DNA of 64,000 bases from an uncultured Clostridia bacterium (lineage in GTDB: Bacteria > Bacillota > Peptococcia > Peptococcales > Peptococcaceae), in contig CALXUG010000003.1 in NCBI GenBank assembly GCA_944391625.1, positions 62,001 to 126,000 of the forward strand, given 5' to 3'. Every line of letters starts with the position of its first letter. Positions within the stretch are counted from its first letter, which is position 1. The position numbers were made by a program, and so were the translations under genes. The notes under the pieces are model-generated. The model saw only the letters and a list, made by a program, of their open reading frames with translations, searched no databases and was not told where the DNA came from. Below, piece by piece: positions 53,124 to 64,000 of the stretch.

Positions 53124-54053
53124 ATGCGAACAGAACATTTAGAATATCTTCTTGATTTACAAAAAACAAGTTCTTTGTCTAAGACTGCTGAAAACTACTT
53201 TACATCTCATCAGGTAATCAATAATGCTATCAAAACTTTAGAAAAAGAATTTAATGTCACAATTCTAAATCGTACCCATCGCGGCATTCATTTTACAGAA
53301 GCAGGGGAGTTATTCTGCAACTATGCAAAAAAAATTTTCAGTACACAGCAGGATTTTTTGGAACAATTGCATCCATACGCTAATCCAAGTGTTCCTGTAT
53401 TAAATGGAGAATTGGCTATTTACACGATTCCCAGGTTTTCCAATAGATTTTTTCTTGACTTTTTTGATACCTATTGCAGCAAGCATCCCCAAATGAATAT
53501 TTCACTAAAAAATCTGGCTTTTGATAAAATATTAAAACAAATTGAACAGGAAAATAATCCTTTTATTATCCTAACAGCGATTAGCGATCTTCATTCGCAG
53601 GTAAGTGATGATATTCTGCAATTATCGTCCCATTTTTTAACCTATGATATTTTAACTACACAACTACTTGGTTATTGTATTTCCAAAAATTCTAAATATT
53701 ATGATATGCTTTTAGATTCTCTCATGCTGAAAAATTCAATTGATGACGTTAAACTCCCAATCATCGTCCACAATTACTCCATTGAAAGTATTTATTCCTC
53801 CACCTCAGTTCCTGATTCCTATCATTTGGTGGATAATTTTGAAGTACAGCAACGCATGATTAAAAGCGGCAATTATATCGGTATCTGGACATATCAAGAA
53901 TACCAGCAGCATTTTAGCAAAAATTCCAATATACAATTCTTGCCCTTATTAGACGATACCCCATTTCACTATTTAGCTCTATATCACACCGATTGCGCAG
54001 AAGATCCGGCAATTTCTTCTTTCATTGCTTCACTAAAAAGATTATATCAGTGA
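53124..54053 (+). CDS. LysR-family regulator
   Basis: A 309-residue transcription factor with an N-terminal winged helix (about 1-60, LLDLQKTSSLSKTAENYFTSHQVINNAIKTLE cut across the HTH) and a periplasmic-binding-fold effector domain. The gene is AT-rich like the neighbouring permease and AlkP genes, which lie on the opposite strand beyond a three-gene operon. A link to those transport and hydrolase genes is possible but is based on proximity only. Confidence 0.88.
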   Translation: MRTEHLEYLLDLQKTSSLSKTAENYFTSHQVINNAIKTLEKEFNVTILNRTHRGIHFTEAGELFCNYAKKIFSTQQDFLEQLHPYANPSVPVLNGELAIYTIPRFSNRFFLDFFDTYCSKHPQMNISLKNLAFDKILKQIEQENNPFIILTAISDLHSQVSDDILQLSSHFLTYDILTTQLLGYCISKNSKYYDMLLDSLMLKNSIDDVKLPIIVHNYSIESIYSSTSVPDSYHLVDNFEVQQRMIKSGNYIGIWTYQEYQQHFSKNSNIQFLPLLDDTPFHYLALYHTDCAEDPAISSFIASLKRLYQ

Positions 54054-54080
54054 TATACAACTGTTACTGATATAATCTTT
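54036..54080. terminator. Bidirectional terminator overlapping the LysR stop
   Basis: AAAAGATTATATCAGT pairs perfectly with ACTGATATAATCTTTT (16 bases) between the two convergent genes. Confidence 0.88.
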
Positions 54081-55033
54081 TATATATTGTCCGAAACAAA
54101 CAGCCCCATTTTCTTACCATACAATAAAAAATCTTTTAACTCTTGCTGATTAAAACTATCTTTGTTTTGAATATATAATCTTTGATAATTTTTTTGCAGT
54201 TCATCCCTAGGCAGTTTATAAATTTGTAGCAACAATTCAAAATATTTATCATCTATCGTTTGCTGCAATAAATTTTCAAATACATACTTTTTTTCTTGGA
54301 TAACTGTAAAATCAATGGCATCAAAATATAGCTCTTTTGTCAAAATAGGAGATACCATTTTCCCCTGTTCCAAAAATATTTGCCGTTCCTGCCAGGCTGT
54401 ATAATACTGCGAATAAATTTTATATTCACGGTTTTGTCCATCCAAATCCATATAACCAAATCCTGCATAGATATGTTTCTCCCCATCTTGCAAGATATAC
54501 TCATGTTCTAACTGTTTTTTTATCCGTTTTGTATGCTGAAGCAGTTTTTGCCCATGCTCAATTGTCAACACCTTCATGTACATCGCCATAGATAAAGTAG
54601 CTTCAAACAAATTGATTAAATTTTCATCATAACAATCTTCTATTTGCTTCCACCAATACTGCAACATAGCTGCCGCAGTATTTTGTACTGCGATCTGCTT
54701 TAATTGTACTATAGTATCAAAATAGCTATCACTATATAGATGCCTGATTGTATTTAATACCTCTAATTGATACCGCCGTTTTATGGTCTGCTTCATCCCC
54801 CCAGAGATCTTACCCCAATAACTTTTCTTCATTCCAGATGTACAATAGATATCCTGTTGCTCACATTGTAATACAAAATCAAAAAACTTCTTTTCCTTTC
54901 CCGTCACAAAATATCCAATAGAGCTTCCTGTTAAATAACTACAGGCAAAAAACTGAAACTCTTCCTCTACGGCTCCTGCATTTTTCAATTTTGTATATAA
55001 CAATCCTGTAGCACTGTCGCGTCCGGCATACAT
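54080..55033 (-). CDS. Uncharacterised helical protein
   Basis: A 317-residue cytoplasmic protein rich in Gln, Tyr and Leu, predicted mostly helical, with no signal peptide or membrane segment. It opens MYAGRDSATGLLYTKLKNAG and contains an apparent conserved-looking stretch GFGYMDLDGQNREYKIYSQY. I do not recognise a family. It begins three bases after the ATPase gene, so it is probably the partner or target of that ATPase. Confidence 0.75.
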   Translation of the reverse strand: MYAGRDSATGLLYTKLKNAGAVEEEFQFFACSYLTGSSIGYFVTGKEKKFFDFVLQCEQQDIYCTSGMKKSYWGKISGGMKQTIKRRYQLEVLNTIRHLYSDSYFDTIVQLKQIAVQNTAAAMLQYWWKQIEDCYDENLINLFEATLSMAMYMKVLTIEHGQKLLQHTKRIKKQLEHEYILQDGEKHIYAGFGYMDLDGQNREYKIYSQYYTAWQERQIFLEQGKMVSPILTKELYFDAIDFTVIQEKKYVFENLLQQTIDDKYFELLLQIYKLPRDELQKNYQRLYIQNKDSFNQQELKDFLLYGKKMGLFVSDNI

Positions 55034-55036
55034 ACG

Positions 55037-55825
55037 CTACACCCTCTCTTCCTGTAACCGAATATGAAAATAATCTTTCTCCTGTAGTACCTCTACTGTT
55101 TGTGAAAAAAATTCAGATAATACCTGAGAACAAAAAACATCTCGCATTGCACCTTGCTGAAAAATTTTACCATGTTTTAATAACAAACAGTGGGTAAATA
55201 TCGGTGGGATTTCCTCTGGGTAATGGGTCACATAAACAAATGTGACTTGCCGCTGATTGGCCATACGCATCAAAATACGTTTCAACTGCATCCTTGCCAG
55301 AAAATCCAATCCTGAATTGGGTTCATCCAACAAAAAAATTTCCGGTTCGGCAAAAAAAGCTCTCGCCAGCAACACATTCTGTTGTTCCCCTTTACTCAAC
55401 ATCTTATAAGGCAAATCCTTTTTCTGTGCTAAGCGAAACACCTGCAATAATTGTTTGGCTCGCAAAATATCCTGATTATCTATATATTCTGAAAGACCTA
55501 GTGTTCCTGTTTTCCCTGAAAGCACAATGGATAATACAGACTCTTTCTGCAATATTTTATTAAAAAATGATGTACTCACCCAGCCAATTTTTTTTCGATA
55601 TTCCAACAAATTTGCAGCATCATAGGGGCTATCAAACAAAGAGAGATTTCCAGCAGTATAGTTTCGATACCCCACAATGGCACTTAACAACGTCGTTTTA
55701 CCACTACCATTTTCTCCAAAAACCAACCACTGTTCGCCTTGCTTTACCTGCCAGGTTATATTTTGCAATAAATAATGCTTACCAATCTTACAAGACACTT
55801 GCTGCATTTTTATTAAATGATTCAT
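55037..55825 (-). CDS. ABC-type ATPase without membrane partner
   Basis: A 262-residue ATPase with Walker A GENGSGKTT, Walker B IFLLDEPNSGLD and H-loop VTHYPEEIP. The signature is a divergent LSKGEQQNVLLARAF. It most resembles soluble ABC proteins such as the ModF/YlmA group. No permease gene is adjacent; instead it lies between a zinc-ribbon protein and an unknown helical protein. I chose the ATG giving MNHLIKMQ, which has AGGTGA nine bases ahead; a GTG and an ATG slightly upstream are alternatives. A non-transport role is likely. Confidence 0.82.
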   Translation of the reverse strand: MNHLIKMQQVSCKIGKHYLLQNITWQVKQGEQWLVFGENGSGKTTLLSAIVGYRNYTAGNLSLFDSPYDAANLLEYRKKIGWVSTSFFNKILQKESVLSIVLSGKTGTLGLSEYIDNQDILRAKQLLQVFRLAQKKDLPYKMLSKGEQQNVLLARAFFAEPEIFLLDEPNSGLDFLARMQLKRILMRMANQRQVTFVYVTHYPEEIPPIFTHCLLLKHGKIFQQGAMRDVFCSQVLSEFFSQTVEVLQEKDYFHIRLQEERV

Positions 55826-55830
55826 ATCCA

Positions 55831-56250
55831 TCACTCACCTATTAATAACTGTAAATCCTCTTTTTTTACATTGAGCCACTCATGCAATAACTGTTCCAGA
55901 GTTTTTACCGGGTATATAAAACCTGTTTCACTTAAATAACCTAAGGTAACAAACCCCCAAGAAATGATCTCTACTACTTTTGCAATGGTCATTTGCCGTT
56001 GTTGCGGTATATTTTCAATATCTGAATAACATTGAAATTCCATTTCGTCCACAAAATATTCCGCTGCCGCATAAATTTCTTTCTCCACACCAAACTCAAG
56101 TTTTTCGCAAATAGGGCAATATAACTCTGCTCTGGCATTATCATCTTCACTAAATACAAGCCGTTGTAATTCCAAATCGCTGCCGCAGTATTTACAACAG
56201 CAGTGAAATTTTCTTGATTTCAATACTTCCGTCCTGTTTTTTTGCTCCAT
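55831..56250 (-). CDS. Zinc-ribbon protein of unknown function
   Basis: A 139-residue protein with an N-terminal metal-binding region (FHCCCKYCGSDLEL, then AELYCPICEKLE) that forms a C-x-x-C...C-x-x-C ribbon, and a C-terminal helical domain that resembles no family I know. It is the first gene of the three-gene unit: its stop overlaps the region of the ATPase start. Similar small ribbon proteins occur next to nucleic-acid or ribosome-associated ATPases, but the role is open. Confidence 0.75.
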   Translation of the reverse strand: MEQKNRTEVLKSRKFHCCCKYCGSDLELQRLVFSEDDNARAELYCPICEKLEFGVEKEIYAAAEYFVDEMEFQCYSDIENIPQQRQMTIAKVVEIISWGFVTLGYLSETGFIYPVKTLEQLLHEWLNVKKEDLQLLIGE

Positions 56251-56366: not shown

Positions 56367-57809
56367 TTAAAACGTCAAATTTAACAACGGCATCATGATT
56401 ATCAAAACCGCACAATTGACTATATAAAACATCCACCCATAAATATACGAATGTTTTACTGGTACCCCATCTTTACCAAAAATTAAAGCTGCCATCATGG
56501 AACCAGCAGGTGTTGCATATGCACAACACAAGGTCAGATAAATCATGAAGAAGAAGGTGGTTGGATTCCCACCCATATTCATAATAAATGGAGCAAAAAT
56601 CGGAATAAACAGAGCACCCATCACTACATTATGCATAAATTGTGTCAATAAACCAACTACAATTACTATGAGTATTAACAAAACAGTTACACTCATATCA
56701 GAAAATAATGTATTGCAAAACATGTTGATAGATGCCATAATTCCTGTATCCGCTGATTCCATTGCAGTTGCCACTGGAATCGTCACCATGAATAACAACA
56801 GAGTATTCCAAATGACACCATTCTTAAAACACGCTCCCATATCACATACAGCCTTATTGTTTTCATCTTTCCACACACAAAATACAACCATATACAAAAT
56901 TGAGAACCCTGCCACTCCCCATGTCGCAAACATAGTCCAAATAGCTCCTTTAAATATAGAAGGTAAGAGTAATCCCAAAAAATAAAGGACTAACAAAATT
57001 AACCCAACCTTCTGCACAGAAGTCATTTTTTTACTTGCATACTCCTTACGCATTTCTTCACTTAAATTAAAGTTGCTTACATCCACCTTCAAGAAAACTT
57101 TACTAATAATAATCATTACGCCAAATGTAAGCAAACTGTAAACGATAGCATTCAGCAAGAAAGATACCGTTGGAATTGATAACCCCGTAGCCGCTGTATA
57201 AAATCCTCCATAAAGAATAACACCACCATAAAACGGAACCACTGATCCCCCTGTCATTCCTGAAAACAACACCATCGCATATAACATACTCAAAAGTACA
57301 TTCCCATTTTTAATGCCATTTACTTCAGCAATTGCTGCAATTACTGACCAAATTAAGAAAATTGCTGCAAAACCACCGCCTAATAAACTCATAACAAAAA
57401 CACCAGCAATAAGCGCAATACATAATAACCATGGTCGCCCTACAAAAACTTTTCGTCCCATTAAATAATATGCAATAGCTTCACTAACACCGATTCTATG
57501 CAAGCATTCCGCAAATGCAAAGCATATTAAAATAATTATTGTTGTTGGATTAGTAAATGCTTCAACAAATGCTGCAATAAGATTAGTATAGCCCGTTAAT
57601 GCTAAAGTAAAAAATCCCAAAACACTAGTCCATAACAAATCAATAAAACACCAACCATATACAAGTCCCAAAAATACACCCAGTACTTTCATACCCATAG
57701 GTGTTATCTCTGCAAATGGTGGTAAATACCCAAAAAACAGCATAAGAACAAGCATAACTGCAACATGAATATAACTAATTATTTGTTTTTTACCAACTGC
57801 CGTACCCAT
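56367..57809 (-). CDS. SLC13/DASS-like anion permease
   Basis: A 480-residue membrane protein with about twelve helices. The two related halves of an ion-transporter/DASS fold are visible, with the helix hairpin signature LTQFMHNVVMGALFIPIF and a second conserved segment CCAYATPAGSMMAALIFG near the C-terminus. Relatives move carboxylates or other small anions with sodium. The ATG at 57809 follows GGAGG. It lies beside an AlkP-superfamily gene, and a second permease of the same family is at the right edge of the window. The substrate is unknown. Confidence 0.87.
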   Translation of the reverse strand: MGTAVGKKQIISYIHVAVMLVLMLFFGYLPPFAEITPMGMKVLGVFLGLVYGWCFIDLLWTSVLGFFTLALTGYTNLIAAFVEAFTNPTTIIILICFAFAECLHRIGVSEAIAYYLMGRKVFVGRPWLLCIALIAGVFVMSLLGGGFAAIFLIWSVIAAIAEVNGIKNGNVLLSMLYAMVLFSGMTGGSVVPFYGGVILYGGFYTAATGLSIPTVSFLLNAIVYSLLTFGVMIIISKVFLKVDVSNFNLSEEMRKEYASKKMTSVQKVGLILLVLYFLGLLLPSIFKGAIWTMFATWGVAGFSILYMVVFCVWKDENNKAVCDMGACFKNGVIWNTLLLFMVTIPVATAMESADTGIMASINMFCNTLFSDMSVTVLLILIVIVVGLLTQFMHNVVMGALFIPIFAPFIMNMGGNPTTFFFMIYLTLCCAYATPAGSMMAALIFGKDGVPVKHSYIYGWMFYIVNCAVLIIMMPLLNLTF

Positions 57810-57933
57810 AGTACACCCTCCATTCTTAACATTCATTCTCAATTATTACTAAAATATTTCTAAACAATCAGATTTTTCATTATCATTAAGTTACACATTT
57901 TTCAACCACTTATGATATACCACAAATGAAAAC

Positions 57934-57977
57934 TCAGGTGAGTAAACAATATATATTTTATTTTTTTACTCACCTGA
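57934..57977 (-). terminator. Terminator of the first AlkP gene
   Basis: TCAGGTGAGTAAA pairs perfectly with TTTACTCACCTGA, followed by an AT-rich run. It separates the AlkP gene from the permease downstream. Confidence 0.85.
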
Positions 57978-58004
57978 TAACGAACCCATCAACTACTTAT
58001 AATT

Positions 58005-60029
58005 TTAATCCACTAAAATCTGATGCACCACTGCACCATCTGCCTGTTCTGGCACACGTACACCCATAATGGCGGCTACCGTTGGTGCAATATCTACTTC
58101 ACGAATCTGTCGCTGCATTTCATAACCAGCTTTTACACCTTTTCCTGCTGCTACAAAAATTGGTGATACTGATGTGCCAAAATATCCTTCTGTAGTTGAC
58201 AATGCATCACCATGCAAACGGTTAAAGCCTTCTTCTAAGAAATAAATAATATCACCGCATTTTGGACCGCTCATACCCAATAGCACTGCATCTTTATTGC
58301 GCATTGCAATATTAACAACACGTTTTCCATTTAAGCGATAATTATATAAATCATCAATAATTTGACGTTCCAGTTCATATTTATCGGCAGGATCGACAAT
58401 CCCATTATCATTTCTGCCTTTCAAATTGATATAAATATGATTACCGCGCGGTGCTACCGCTCTTGTTTTGGACCAATCTACAATATGTAGTTCTTGTCCA
58501 TTTTTTCCTTTTTTCAAAACAGTGTATCCAAGTTCCTTTAAAACTCCAACATTCATAACAAAACCTTCACCCAGCATAGGTAATTCATCTTCTTCACTAC
58601 ACAACAAACCATGATCGCTGGTTAAAATCAAAGTCCAACCTTTATCCATCAACGGCATTAAACGACCTACATAATCGTCGGCTTGTAAATAAATTTCCTC
58701 CATAAACCCTTGATAAATTTTTTCATCCTGATTACCATAACGATTTCTTGTTTTTCCCCATCTCCAACACGCATGCCCAATATGATCACAACTGTGTAAA
58801 TGGGTGAATACTGCATCATAATCATTCTGCTCTATTAAACCTAACAACGCTGTCGCCTGCCACTTTTCCATATAATCCCAAGATGGCAAACTTCTGCGGC
58901 TCATCATCTCTGGATAACCACCACCGCTATTATTAGCCACTGGACAATAGCCTGCAATATCTACAGCTTTCTGATATAAAGATTTTGGATGCCAAGTCGC
59001 CTCTTTTACATTTGTGGTAATGTCTAAACATTGACCCATATCAATGCGAACACTCGGTATTTCCTGCTCAATTTTTAAAATACTAACAGAACGGGTTCCT
59101 CTCACCTTCTGTCCTTCTTCATTAACAAGTTCGATAACTTGTACAGGTAAATATTCACCTTCTGATAATGCTGACCAAGGCTCTAAATCCTTTTTGCTCA
59201 TATAAATCTCAACCCTATCATATACTCCAGTTTCATTTTTCAACAATAAAGAAGGGAGCTGCTTCATGCCATTAGAAACAATTACCGGAAATTCCAATGC
59301 ACCTTCTGGTATCTCATGCATCCAACCCGCTGGTTCATGTAACGGCACCTCAAAACGGGCTAAATTAGTATCGAACTCACCTGCTTCTTCACCTTCCATA
59401 TGATCTAATAGCGGCCAAGCGTCGCCTCCATTTGCAGCAAAAGTAGCGGAACACCCACCTGAAACATCTTCAAATTCTTCAATAGCACCTTCAATAATGC
59501 AACCTGCCCCCCCATGATTTTCTCCTACTATCTGTGCAATAACCTTATTATTAGATACAGATGCCGTTGTAATCGTCTCTTGATCCAAATCACAACCAGC
59601 CATATTTGGTCCCATTGGGCACATACCACCAACCACATGCAAATTTTCACTTGAATGGCTTGGCGGCCAGCTAGCACCGGGCCATGTCCATACCAATACT
59701 TTTTTACCTGCTTCTACAATGCAGTTCCAAACCTGCTCTGCTTGGCATTCACCAGAATCAAATGCATATACTAATCTACCAATATCGGTTGGATGTTGAT
59801 TCCAGTAACAGGTGATTCCATGAGTAGACGGGTAAGATCCTGTGGCCAAAGTTGTCCACATTGGCGGTGTGATGGTAGGCATTGCACCCAGTAATACTAA
59901 GTCTTTCCGTGCTGAACCCTGTTCAATCAATTTTTTAATATTTGGTAATTTTCCTTCATCCACCATTCTTCTAGTCATTTTGGGATCCATACCGTCAATC
60001 CCAATGACAAATACTTTATTATCACTCAT
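58005..60029 (-). CDS. AlkP-superfamily hydrolase, copy 1
   Basis: A 674-residue cytoplasmic protein of the alkaline-phosphatase/phosphodiesterase superfamily. Metal and catalytic residues are visible: D12 in GIDGMDPKMTR, the probable nucleophile T54 in PTITPPMWTT, a D and H in HSCDHIGHACW, DHG in ILTSDHGLL, H in NRLHGDALS, and the C-terminal REVDIAPTVAAIMGV. A ~200-residue insert between the nucleophile and the DHIGH motif is specific to this subgroup. There is no signal peptide. It forms a pair with the permease 200 bases downstream. The substrate (phosphate, phosphonate or sulfate ester) cannot be named. Confidence 0.85.
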   Translation of the reverse strand: MSDNKVFVIGIDGMDPKMTRRMVDEGKLPNIKKLIEQGSARKDLVLLGAMPTITPPMWTTLATGSYPSTHGITCYWNQHPTDIGRLVYAFDSGECQAEQVWNCIVEAGKKVLVWTWPGASWPPSHSSENLHVVGGMCPMGPNMAGCDLDQETITTASVSNNKVIAQIVGENHGGAGCIIEGAIEEFEDVSGGCSATFAANGGDAWPLLDHMEGEEAGEFDTNLARFEVPLHEPAGWMHEIPEGALEFPVIVSNGMKQLPSLLLKNETGVYDRVEIYMSKKDLEPWSALSEGEYLPVQVIELVNEEGQKVRGTRSVSILKIEQEIPSVRIDMGQCLDITTNVKEATWHPKSLYQKAVDIAGYCPVANNSGGGYPEMMSRRSLPSWDYMEKWQATALLGLIEQNDYDAVFTHLHSCDHIGHACWRWGKTRNRYGNQDEKIYQGFMEEIYLQADDYVGRLMPLMDKGWTLILTSDHGLLCSEEDELPMLGEGFVMNVGVLKELGYTVLKKGKNGQELHIVDWSKTRAVAPRGNHIYINLKGRNDNGIVDPADKYELERQIIDDLYNYRLNGKRVVNIAMRNKDAVLLGMSGPKCGDIIYFLEEGFNRLHGDALSTTEGYFGTSVSPIFVAAGKGVKAGYEMQRQIREVDIAPTVAAIMGVRVPEQADGAVVHQILVD

Positions 60030-60137
60030 CGTTATTTCCTCCTAATCCATAAATCATCACACTTTGCAACGGCCGTTACATCTATCTTCCATATGCTTAT
60101 TGTAACTATAAATTTTTCTTTTTAGAAGGGCAGGTAT

Positions 60138-60184
60138 TTTCCCCTTTTTACCGGTAATTTCAAATTACCACTAAAAAGGGGAAA
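60138..60184. terminator. Nested hairpin upstream of AlkP copy 1
   Basis: TTTCCCCTTTTT pairs with AAAAAGGGGAAA and encloses a second stem GGTAATTT/AAATTACC. It probably stops transcripts arriving from the 60600-62633 gene. Confidence 0.7.
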
Positions 60185-60215
60185 TCGGCATTAGCCAACT
60201 TCGACTGATTATAAG

Positions 60216-60288
60216 AAGAAACAGCAAGAACCCGTAGAAATGCGTGCCTTTCGGCATCGTCATATTCCACGGGTTCTTGCTGTTTCTT
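60216..60288. repeat. Long inverted repeat, 20-base arms
   Basis: AAGAAACAGCAAGAACCCGT is repeated perfectly inverted at 60269-60288 with a 33-base spacer. It abuts the transposase remnant and may be an element end or its terminator. Confidence 0.75.
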
Positions 60289-60293
60289 AAGTA

Positions 60294-60550
60294 CTAATAT
60301 TTTAGGGCGCAAAAAATAAAGGTATCCTCATCTATGATTGGCACTTTATAGGCACGGGGCTTCCGTTGTTCATACTCCTGCAGTTTAATATAACTTTCTA
60401 TGTGATGTTCTTTTAAGAACATCAGTTTTTCTCGCTGCAATAACCACTGTCTACAGTGGCTTCTTTTAGCACTTCCCCAAACGCTTTGATATGTTTCTTT
60501 ACAACCGGAATCAGAGTATTATAATCTGTTCTGTCATTACTTATATAACC
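60294..60550 (-). pseudogene. Transposase remnant (IS1182/IS5-like DDE type)
   Basis: The minus strand keeps VDSGYCSEKN and, after a one-base frameshift, LMFLKEHHIESYIKLQEYEQ and a basic stretch, as in the C-terminal part of the catalytic region of IS1182-like transposases (DDE family). Only about 85 codons are left and the frame is broken, so it is dead. It lies exactly between the two AlkP genes and suggests the duplication or arrangement was shaped by an insertion sequence. Confidence 0.8.
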
Positions 60551-60599
60551 GTTTCCCATTCTCCTTTATCGACTTTACCCTATTATTGATATTAAGCTA

Positions 60600-62633
60600 T
60601 TAAAATTCTTCCGCAAAAATCTGATAAGCTGGCGCACCTTCACACTGCGCAGGCATTCTTACCCCACCTAACGCGGCCATCGTCGGGGCAACGTCTACCT
60701 CACGAATTACACGATCAGTGTAAAATCCTTGTTTAATACCTTTCCCTGCTGCAATAAAAATAGGAGAAACAGATGTGTCTGCATGGCCTTTCAAAGTAGA
60801 AAGCGCATCACCATGCACTCGGTTAAATCCTTCTTCTAGAAAATAAATAATATCACCAGAATCCAATCCATTCATTCCTAACAATGCAGCTTCCTGATTA
60901 CGAATTGCCAAGCCAATAATTCGTTTACCATCCACATTTCTATAGGCATATAAATCATCTATAATCTGTCGTTCCAATTCATATTTATCCTCTAGATCTA
61001 CAATCCCATATTCATATTTCCCTTTTAAGTTAATATAAATATGATTTCCCCGACTTGCCACTGCACGAGTTTTACTGTAATCAATTTCGCGTATTTCTTC
61101 ACCTTTTTCATTTCGTTTCATCACTGTATAACCTAACTCACGCATAATCGTCGTATTAATAACAAATCCATCACCAAGTCCAGGAGGTACGCCAGGTTCT
61201 TCTTTACACAACAGACCATGGTCCGAAGTGATAATTACGGTCCAGCCTTCATCTAATAAATGTAAAAAATCTCCTAAATATCTATCCGTATCAACGTACA
61301 ACTGCTGGAACAGCTTTTCATAGACTTCTTCCTGTTCTTCATTTCCAAAACCATTCCGATATTCGTATAAAGAGTGAGCAAAATTATCAATATTATGGTA
61401 ATGACTGTACACAACTTCATAGCCTTCCTGCTCAATTAAATAGTTCATGGCTTTTGCCTGCCAGTCCCCATACTCTCTCCAGGTTCGATTCATAAACTCA
61501 TCCCACAAATGAGGGGATCCTCCTAAGTTATTTTGCAGTTCAAAACTTGGCACATAACCTACATGCTCAACAACATCTTTATATAAATGTTTTGGCCAGA
61601 ATAAATCATCACAATCTTTTTTCAAGGCGTTTCCCAGCCATAGTGTAAAACCAGAACCATTGGGAGCACAGTCAATTAAAATAACACCACGAGTAACTGC
61701 CTGTTTTTCATCATTTTTATCTAATAATTCATCTTCCATATAAACAACATACTCACCATTTTTAATTCTTATCAATGGTTGCTCTACTTTTTTAGAGGTA
61801 TAAATTTCCACTGTGTTATATGCACCAGTTTCATCTTTCTTTAACAACCCGACACGACGAACTTTACCTTCACAAAGCATTAATGAAAATTCTTTTGCAT
61901 CAGCAGGGGCATTTGCCCAGCCATGTGCGGTTTTCAAGGGTTCTTCTGTTGTAAATGGTGCTTCTTTCCCAAAATTCTGGTTTTCCCCTTCAAATGGATT
62001 CATTGAAATTGGCTGCGGTTCTGGCATAGATAAGCTAGCCATACAATCTGCTGCATCATTTTTTTCAACTTCCAAGCCTTCCACAATACATCCTGCACCA
62101 TTCATTTTAACGCCTTCAAATGTGTGCTCTTCCTCCTTTTGGATTTTTTCTGCAACTACAAAAATCTGTGCTCGATCCATTGTGCCAATCGTATAGTTTA
62201 CCCCACTAGGCTGCGTTCCTTCTACAACATGCAGATTTGCATTGTCACTGGTTGGAGGCCAAGAGCAACCGGGCCAATGCCATACCAAAGTTTTCTTCCC
62301 TGCTTCTGCAAACACATTCCATAATGGTTCCGCTTTACATTTTCTTGAATCATTTGCATATACAAAAGTATCAATTTTAGTTGGGTGCTGACTCCAGAAG
62401 CAAGTAATCCCATGCGTTGCTGGATTAGCCCCAGTAGATAATGTTGTCCACATTGGAGGGGTGATTGTTGGCACGCCGCCCAACATAACTAAGTCCTGGC
62501 GTGCAGCACCTCTATCCAGATATTTCTGAACATTCGGCATTAACCCCATATCCACATACTTCCGTGTTAAGCGTGGGTCCATACCATCAACACCTAACAC
62601 AATAATTTTTTCTGTCATTGCTGTTCTTGCCAT
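60600..62633 (-). CDS. AlkP-superfamily hydrolase, copy 2
   Basis: A 677-residue paralogue of the gene at 58005-60029 with the same motif order: GVDGMDPRLTR, PTITPPMWTTL (nucleophile Thr), HYHNIDNFAHSLY in place of DHIGH, TSDHGLL, NRVHGDALS and REVDVAPTMAALGGV. The two copies diverge most in the middle insert, which probably shapes the substrate pocket, so the substrates may differ. The start MARTAMTEKIIVLGVDG at 62633 follows AGGAGG. It probably works with the permease beginning right of 63.3 kb. Confidence 0.86.
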   Translation of the reverse strand: MARTAMTEKIIVLGVDGMDPRLTRKYVDMGLMPNVQKYLDRGAARQDLVMLGGVPTITPPMWTTLSTGANPATHGITCFWSQHPTKIDTFVYANDSRKCKAEPLWNVFAEAGKKTLVWHWPGCSWPPTSDNANLHVVEGTQPSGVNYTIGTMDRAQIFVVAEKIQKEEEHTFEGVKMNGAGCIVEGLEVEKNDAADCMASLSMPEPQPISMNPFEGENQNFGKEAPFTTEEPLKTAHGWANAPADAKEFSLMLCEGKVRRVGLLKKDETGAYNTVEIYTSKKVEQPLIRIKNGEYVVYMEDELLDKNDEKQAVTRGVILIDCAPNGSGFTLWLGNALKKDCDDLFWPKHLYKDVVEHVGYVPSFELQNNLGGSPHLWDEFMNRTWREYGDWQAKAMNYLIEQEGYEVVYSHYHNIDNFAHSLYEYRNGFGNEEQEEVYEKLFQQLYVDTDRYLGDFLHLLDEGWTVIITSDHGLLCKEEPGVPPGLGDGFVINTTIMRELGYTVMKRNEKGEEIREIDYSKTRAVASRGNHIYINLKGKYEYGIVDLEDKYELERQIIDDLYAYRNVDGKRIIGLAIRNQEAALLGMNGLDSGDIIYFLEEGFNRVHGDALSTLKGHADTSVSPIFIAAGKGIKQGFYTDRVIREVDVAPTMAALGGVRMPAQCEGAPAYQIFAEEF

Positions 62634-62949
62634 AATAAAACCTCCTAGTATAATACAGAGACAAAACACTGTTCAAACGAACCGCTTGATCATCTTTATC
62701 TTCGGTAAATACGTTAATCGTCTCAATACCTGCGTCCTGCAATTTTACTGCTGTATCACCGCTTGCATTTGCCATACCGTCAATAAATTCTCATAAACCA
62801 TTACCGCCAAGCCCCTCTTTTTCCTCATAATTACTATCATGCTTGATTACACAAGGAGTACTAGCTTCTCCTAAAGTATCTATCCTTATCAAAGTTTGCT
62901 ACAGCTATATCTACGCTAGCGCCAATAACAAGTTCACTATCGCATTACC

Positions 62950-63264
62950 AAGAGCAGTACCAAGAGCAGTACCATCAATAACAATCAGGTTCTCGCTATC
63001 GCTGATTGGAGGCTAAGCACTTCCCGGCCAATGAAATACTGCTGTTTTAAAACCTGCTTCTACTAAGCAATTCCAAACTGGTTCAGTCTTGCAAACACGA
63101 GAGTCGATATTGTAATCCCATTGTGTAATCAATCCCAGAATACAGCGACTAAATTGTGTAATACTATGGGTAGATGGATAGGTACCAATTGCTAAGGTAA
63201 TCCATTGTGGTGGTGTAACGGTAGGTTGCACACCAAGATAATAGCCATTACATATTGGCTGCAT
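62950..63264 (-). pseudogene. Decayed third AlkP-superfamily copy
   Basis: The minus strand keeps YLGVQPTVTPPQWITLAIGT, then VWNCLVEAG and FHWPGSA followed by an in-frame stop where the intact copies have a Trp or Ser, and then PPISDSENLIVIDGT, which matches WPPTSDNANLHVVEGT of copy 2. The first metal-binding motif and everything past about residue 130 are missing. A further scrambled stretch (62640-62950) has many stops. The gene is inactive. Confidence 0.82.
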
Positions 63265-63292
63265 TATTTATTATAGTTATAAATGTTTACTA

Positions 63293-64000
63293 TTAAATTC
63301 TAAATAACATATTTCCTAATGGAATACCTACTACTGCAAATACAATCCATGCAATTACCAGTAACATAATACCCATGAGATAGGCATGTTTTCTTTCCAT
63401 CATATCATGTCCAAACACCAAAGCTGACTGGAATGAACCAGCTGGTGTACAATACGCCAAATTCAAAGTCAAAAATAAAATGAACCATAAAGTATATATG
63501 TTTCCACCTAGTGACTCTAAAATCGGTAACAAGAACGGCATAAATATTGCAGCTAATACAATATTATGGGTCACTTGTGTAAGAATACCTAAAACGACCA
63601 TACAAAGAATCATAAATGGAACCGGACCTAACCCTGAAACAATTGGTGTAACGGTCTGCAAAATTGTAGGCATAATACCTGCTTCTTCGTGTTTCAATAA
63701 ATCAGCAAGAGGATACGTAACCGCCAATAAGAAAAACAGTGTCCAGTCTAATTTAGCAAATACAGTACGAAGTTCAATGTAGCCCTTCCCTTTATAATTC
63801 AATACTGCTAACACCAATAAAGCAATACCACTAATTCCACCAACACCTAATGTGTTAATCCATTTTGCCCCCGGAAATGTGAATAAAGATGCCAGTAATA
63901 AAACTAATACATATGCGACCAACACGAGCAAAGAAATTTTTTGTTTTTGCGTAGCTTGTTCTGCCTTAATTTCTTCCAATACATATTCTGGTAAGATAAA
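63293..64000 (-). CDS. SLC13/DASS-like permease, second copy (5' end outside window)
   Basis: The visible 235 residues are the C-terminal half of a second permease of the family at 56367-57809: a soluble basic linker (EEIKAEQATQKQKISL), then helices including ILTQVTHNIVLAAIFMPF, which aligns with LTQFMHNVVMGALFIPIF, and NLAYCTPAGSFQSALVFGHD. The reading frame stays open to the right edge. It lies upstream of AlkP copy 2, with the decayed copy between them, so the permease-AlkP pairing occurs twice. Confidence 0.85.
   Translation of the reverse strand, partial: FILPEYVLEEIKAEQATQKQKISLLVLVAYVLVLLLASLFTFPGAKWINTLGVGGISGIALLVLAVLNYKGKGYIELRTVFAKLDWTLFFLLAVTYPLADLLKHEEAGIMPTILQTVTPIVSGLGPVPFMILCMVVLGILTQVTHNIVLAAIFMPFLLPILESLGGNIYTLWFILFLTLNLAYCTPAGSFQSALVFGHDMMERKHAYLMGIMLLVIAWIVFAVVGIPLGNMLFRI

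Follow-up and report, generated by a model that had tools for sequence, protein, structure and literature searches.

The nine-gene cluster described here is read, with a probability of roughly 0.5, as a regulated module for uptake and cleavage, one among about 30 that would supply sulfite respiration in an uncultured bacterium of a gut Peptococcaceae family. The evidence is the gene content of the cluster, a conserved hydrolase active site, the expansion of the hydrolase family across the genome, its co-occurrence with the sulfite reductase subunit DsrA, the absence of ATP sulfurylase from the gut family and the presence of thioredoxin operons around hydrolase genes outside it.

Organization of the cluster

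The cluster lies partly in the window (the whole stretch of DNA analysed, 64,000 nucleotides), which carries genes for two DASS/CitMHS-type permeases along with those of two full-length AlkP-fold hydrolases and the pseudogene remnant of a further one. These genes are found at the positions given in a preliminary description of the sequence, all on the minus strand. The order of transcription on the contig is AlkP3, Perm2, remnant, AlkP2, AlkP1, Perm1, Zn-ribbon, ModF-like ABC ATPase and U317, followed by a LysR gene on the opposite strand. AlkP3 (C3:126833-128857) is a third full hydrolase found beyond the window edge, 101 bp past Perm2, and the tree pairs it with AlkP1 as recent sister duplicates. 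Perm2 (63293..64000, minus strand) is cut by the window edge; the full protein of 479 aa on the contig scores 51.6 bits for CitMHS, above the cut-off of 31.9. Perm1 (56367..57842, minus strand, 491 aa) is a putative, divergent DASS/CitMHS (SLC13-like) anion permease whose matches to TIGR00785 dass (E 1.1e-11) and CitMHS (E 0.0011) are both under cut-off. The two are 35% identical in an alignment that took in 24 Perm1 paralogues, in agreement with their earlier assignment to a single family.

AlkP1 (58005..60029, minus strand, 674 aa) and AlkP2 (60600..62669, minus strand, 689 aa, the true start being probably the ATG at 62633) belong to the AlkP superfamily and exceed the PF01663 (Phosphodiest) cut-off of 23 bits with 104 and 87 bits, respectively. 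AlkP1 has an NPP-like site and is assigned to the cytoplasm; neither sequence shows a recognisable N-terminal signal peptide, as had been remarked before. The dead third hydrolase of the preliminary description corresponds to the remnant (62830..63237, minus strand), which covers residues about 49-185 (tblastn up to E 8.7e-33; PF01663 40 bits) in a frame holding one internal TAG.

The downstream genes code for a Zn-ribbon-like protein (55831..56250, minus strand) with two CxxC motifs read from its sequence and no Pfam family, a soluble ModF-like ABC ATPase (55037..55834, minus strand; NCBIfam ModF 126 bits, under the cut-off of 459) and U317 (54080..55033, minus strand), a 317-aa protein with no match in Pfam, NCBIfam or PADLOC. 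The AF2 model of U317 is confident (pLDDT 89) and retrieves no PDB fold below E 0.14. Nine copies each of U317 and of the Zn-ribbon-like protein, and 12 homologues of the ATPase above 200 bits, are present in the regions examined. Copies of U317 (e.g., L059:8748-9689, L040:6001-6957, L047:11770-12714) are found beside hydrolases, near a ModF-like ATPase and usually also a Zn-ribbon protein. A defence system was considered and rejected, PADLOC giving no match. The LysR-type regulator (53124..54053, plus strand; HTH_1 45.8 bits) has its best homologues in relatives next to the AlkP1 orthologue (218 bits in locus L054, 231 bits in L059), and the L059 locus of UBA7185 repeats the module with AlkP1, permease, Zn-ribbon, ABC ATPase, U317 and LysR.

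Hydrolase active site and expansion of the family

The preliminary description held that both hydrolases keep the catalytic threonine and the metal ligands and differ in the middle insert, a claim borne out by the alignment of 98 family members. In AlkP2 numbering the nucleophile T70 is kept in 97 of them, and the metal ligands are D28 (97/98), D428, H432, D483 and H484 (98/98 each) and H619 (95/98). Trp74 is kept in 97 or 98 of the 98 sequences; the T and W of the nucleophile motif T-P-P-x-W are present in all 97 sequences that cover the site. As judged from these residues, the site is an NPP-type/AlkP two-metal site with a Thr nucleophile. The motifs TFPNH and FWPGS of NPPs resemble TPPxW and WPG of the hydrolases.

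The AF2 model of AlkP2 (pLDDT 85.5, pTM 0.88) finds its best PDB folds in PafA, SPAP, the phosphonoacetate hydrolase PhnA and NPPs including ENPP6. The AlkP fold, the Thr nucleophile and the two-metal ligands are common to the hydrolases, to NPPs (PF01663; XaNPP 2gsn, ENPP6 5egh) and to PafA/SPAP, but identity in structural alignments is 9-14% and the proteins described here differ in being cytoplasmic, in their length of 670-730 aa, in an insert of roughly 250 aa with an invariant cysteine and in their ties to DsrAB, LysR and DASS permeases. PhnA (3szy, TIGR02335) is the best match in a PDB profile search (E 2.5e-10) and also has the Thr nucleophile; unlike the hydrolases it lacks the insert and is a single-substrate C-P hydrolase, and TIGR02335 itself reaches 36.2 bits, far under its cut-off of 407.55. 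Formylglycine sulfatases such as choline sulfatase (PMC5870055) share the superfamily and the substrate class proposed below, but their Cys/Ser-x-Pro-x-Arg signature is absent at the nucleophile position in the family alignment, where Thr is found instead.

The insert (residues about 150-400) is variable among the hydrolases and no close match to it was identified. Between Gly151 and Trp251 nearly every position varies except Cys194, which is present in 97 of 98 sequences and sits in a loop modelled with low confidence by AF2. The sole hydrolase without this cysteine, L098:447-2555, is also the longest branch of the tree, and its function has possibly changed.

The genome codes for 32 full-length PF01663 hydrolases of 660-730 aa spread over many contigs, of which 29 are paralogues outside the cluster. 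Local duplication, the only expansion seen in the preliminary description, is thus rejected as the whole story. That description had also missed the third full hydrolase, the ModF-like ATPase, the Zn-ribbon protein, U317, LysR and the 29 paralogues. Its proposal of a catabolic module fits all the findings as regards import of an organic anion followed by cytoplasmic cleavage; it had left the choice between phosphate, phosphonate and sulfate esters unmade. The reservation it attached, that permease and hydrolase genes might not co-occur elsewhere, falls because their pairing recurs many times: for 20 of the 32 hydrolases a DASS-type permease is encoded no more than 2 kb away. A LysR gene is found within 2 kb of 27 of the 32, a count that leaves out the LysR gene of the window, located outside the stretch analysed for it. 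The PF00884 matches of this genome sit elsewhere, away from the hydrolase cluster, and canonical sulfatases were rejected since the PF00884 proteins inspected resemble lipoteichoic-acid synthases.

Hydrolase copies in the gut family range from 2 to 82 per genome or, the mouse-gut MAG iMGMC-349 apart, from 2 to at least 29. The 82 matches of iMGMC-349, about 75 of them full length, make up roughly 5% of its 3.0-Mb genome, an unusually large expansion of a single family. Most genomes compared are MAGs; named carriers are gut 'Peptococcaceae' MAGs including UBA7185, one Gracilibacteraceae MAG and three Secundilactobacillus species. The search for plasmid homologues gave only remote haloarchaeal and other matches. 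No description of the hydrolase family, of its expansion or of sulfate-ester respiration was found in a literature search.

Co-occurrence with sulfite reductase and gene neighbours

The searches for the hydrolase and for DsrA were compared over the same sample of 398 genomes of the phylum. The hydrolase was found in 16 genomes, belonging to six families, and DsrA in 54; all 16 hydrolase carriers have DsrA. In a simple draw, without correction for kinship, such an overlap would arise with a probability of 1.5e-15 if genomes are counted, of 6e-10 if genera are, and of about 5e-6 at the level of families. A further carrier (G020) lies outside the DsrA sample. The Gracilibacteraceae genome (G429), which has seven hydrolases, was predicted from the co-occurrence to hold sulfite reductase, and a DsrAB-like tandem was then found there. 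In the tree, the carriers of four other families group tightly in a single clade whose branches are short, a pattern that suggests either transfer or strong conservation. Lactobacilli hold hydrolases of this outside clade (loci L060, L061 and L063 of Secundilactobacillus), evidently acquired by transfer to judge from the tree. A siroheme sulfite reductase adjoins the hydrolase in Secundilactobacillus similis, whereas S. collinoides and S. paracollinoides carry the hydrolase gene and no sulfite reductase domain. Overall, and as far as co-occurrence can speak for function, the near confinement of the family to sulfite-respiring microbes suggests a sulfite-releasing role and not that of common phosphatases.

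The genome under study codes for DsrA (549 bits, above cut-off), DsrB and DsrC (135 bits) together on contig C55. Tandem dissimilatory sulfite reductase genes, whose NIR_SIR products measure 402-429 and 358-368 aa, are found in every gut-family genome that is complete enough to judge; the three genomes with no clear tandem (G003, G006, G011) are 79-85% complete. ATP sulfurylase is absent from the 13 genomes of this family, which should therefore respire sulfite and not sulfate, and sulfate respiration by the host was rejected on this ground. Matches to the PAPS_reduct family are patchy and are absent from the complete genomes G010 and G012. Among the 12 carriers of the sample outside the gut family, ATP sulfurylase is present in six and absent in six; release of sulfate would suit the six that have it.

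A thioredoxin and/or a thioredoxin reductase is found beside the hydrolase in 10 of the 13 loci examined outside the gut family. In nine loci (L081, L082, L083, L086, L088, L090, L091, L092, L094) the thioredoxin is a small protein with the motif CHVC; eight of these, and L089 as well, code for a thioredoxin reductase bearing a thioredoxin-like tail. The thioredoxin gene at locus L128 of the Gracilibacteraceae genome is divergent from a hydrolase gene. Homologues of this thioredoxin in the genome under study are limited, in the regions examined, to C12:41787-42149 and C36:10250-10570, some kilobases from hydrolases and near copies of the Zn-ribbon/ABC/U317 trio. The link between thioredoxin and hydrolase is clear mainly outside the gut family.

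Within the gut family, genome G010 has an arylsulfotransferase-like gene (65 bits) directly downstream of a hydrolase, at L095:9745-13584. A binding protein of the NMT1 type (SsuA/TauA-like) is another neighbour, and NitT/TauT-type ABC transporters are found near some hydrolase copies. Outside the gut family the neighbours also comprise AAHS-type MFS and EamA transporters, the choline TMA-lyase CutC (1541 bits), BCCT and pyrrolysine-type MttB. The MttB-type trimethylamine methyltransferase genes near hydrolase and thioredoxin genes (L090:14750-16228 and L092:4196-5674) have an in-frame stop, as expected of a pyrrolysine codon; L090 also carries a BCCT transporter.

Proposed function and alternatives

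The co-occurrence with DsrA, the sulfur-linked neighbours and the invariant cysteine point to a sulfur substrate. Several facts count against the reading: the characterised proteins closest to the hydrolases act as phosphatases or phosphodiesterases or, in one case, on a phosphonate; to our knowledge, no natural AlkP-superfamily sulfatase uses Thr; some neighbours are choline or trimethylamine genes and not sulfur genes; six carriers have ATP sulfurylase; and the two Secundilactobacillus species named above have no sulfite reductase domain. On balance we somewhat favour a substrate that contains sulfur, while the odds that it is a sulfate ester appear about even. In the module as proposed, the LysR protein would sense an organosulfur anion, the DASS/CitMHS-type permease would import it, and the cytoplasmic AlkP-fold hydrolase, with its Thr nucleophile and two metals, would strip the sulfur group, the variable insert setting specificity. 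DsrAB and DsrC would then reduce the freed sulfite. Sulfate esters with differing alcohol or phenol parts would be the likeliest substrates, a difference that would account for the many paralogues.

Organic sulfur feeds Dsr in a similar way in Bilophila wadsworthia, where organosulfonates donate sulfite and spare the ATP of sulfate activation (PMC8667426); the enzymes there are glycyl-radical and other sulfo-lyases acting on taurine or isethionate, and no comparable AlkP-fold expansion is known. A host without ATP sulfurylase could not reduce sulfate, the product of a plain sulfatase. Since the gut family cannot activate sulfate, a further step is proposed in which the sulfuryl group would pass to Cys194 and exit as sulfite with the aid of thioredoxin, by analogy to APS/PAPS reductases, whose enzyme thiosulfonate intermediate is resolved by thioredoxin to sulfite (PMC6827007). 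The parallel is hypothetical, as sulfonucleotide reductases have an unrelated fold and are restricted to activated nucleotide sulfate. Glutaredoxins of E. coli likewise reduce S-sulfocysteine to cysteine and sulfite (PMC3528435). A Cys/thioredoxin step as in PAPS reductase is held as a tentative and rather unlikely feature of the hydrolases, partly because hydrolase and thioredoxin are less clearly linked within the gut family. The complete proposal, that these are 'reductive sulfatases', formylglycine-free AlkP-fold enzymes which convert a sulfate ester to alcohol and sulfite via a thioredoxin-resolved Cys-S-sulfonate, is put forward with considerable doubt.

The alternative that survives best, itself doubtful, is that the hydrolases act in the manner of NPPs, as phosphodiesterases or phosphatases drawing carbon or phosphate from many imported phosphate esters (e.g., glycerophosphodiesters or nucleotide-like anions), with the link to DsrA reflecting shared ecology. 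It retains this weight because AlkP enzymes of the Thr type otherwise work on phosphate compounds, and it agrees with the NPP/AlkP site and its WPG motif, with PafA, SPAP, PhnA and the NPPs (ENPP6 included) as nearest structures and with the choline and trimethylamine genes close to some copies. It does not explain the invariant cysteine of the insert or the thioredoxin operons, and is opposed by the complete co-occurrence with DsrA across six families and in the Gracilibacteraceae genome and by the arylsulfotransferase and sulfite reductase neighbours. A role limited to glycerophosphocholine or choline, suggested by the CutC, BCCT and MttB neighbours, is kept only within this alternative because it leaves DsrA, thioredoxin and the expansion unexplained.

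It is improbable that the hydrolases represent a new kind of sulfatase that lacks formylglycine and works by plain hydrolysis, the sulfate being excreted, or respired where ATP sulfurylase is present, and the alcohol part serving as nutrient. AlkP-superfamily chemistry, the ATP sulfurylase of six carriers and the arylsulfotransferase adjoining one copy are in line with such a role; however, release of sulfate would not account for the tie to DsrAB in the gut family, which has the largest expansions and no ATP sulfurylase, nor for Cys194 and thioredoxin. It is very improbable that the hydrolases split the C-S bond of sulfonates or the C-P bond of phosphonates, the latter being the reaction of phosphonoacetate hydrolase, and that sulfonate sulfur passes to DsrAB: PhnA as best PDB sequence match, the NitT/TauT-type transporters and the organosulfonates known as sulfite donors of gut sulfite reducers (PMC8667426) speak for it, but the leaving group would have to be a carbanion, which is implausible across dozens of distinct substrates, and simple hydrolysis would yield sulfate, not sulfite.

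Peptococcus niger, a named gut Peptococcus, has long been known to desulfate steroids (Van Eldere et al. 1987, 1991, as cited in PMC3508456 and PMC9631449) and also acts on phenyl sulfates (as cited in PMC3508456); our literature search found no gene for the steroid desulfation of P. niger. The string 'Peptococc' is absent from the main text of a global dsrAB genome survey (PMC10591310) and from that of a gut sulfur-gene survey (PMC9016944). Steroids, phenols and bile acids are abundant in the gut as sulfate conjugates, and the sulfite source of sulfide producers matters for host health. The hydrolase family, which reaches about 75 full-length copies in one genome, is a candidate for a gut sulfite source and for steroid desulfation. 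If its substrates are phosphate esters, the expansion still wants explanation. If the proposed function is true, it adds a route to gut sulfide overlooked by surveys based on known desulfonation genes; and if the hydrolases are 'reductive sulfatases', bacteria without ATP sulfurylase would use dozens of sulfate conjugates from host and diet for respiration, reducing them to sulfide at no cost in activation ATP.
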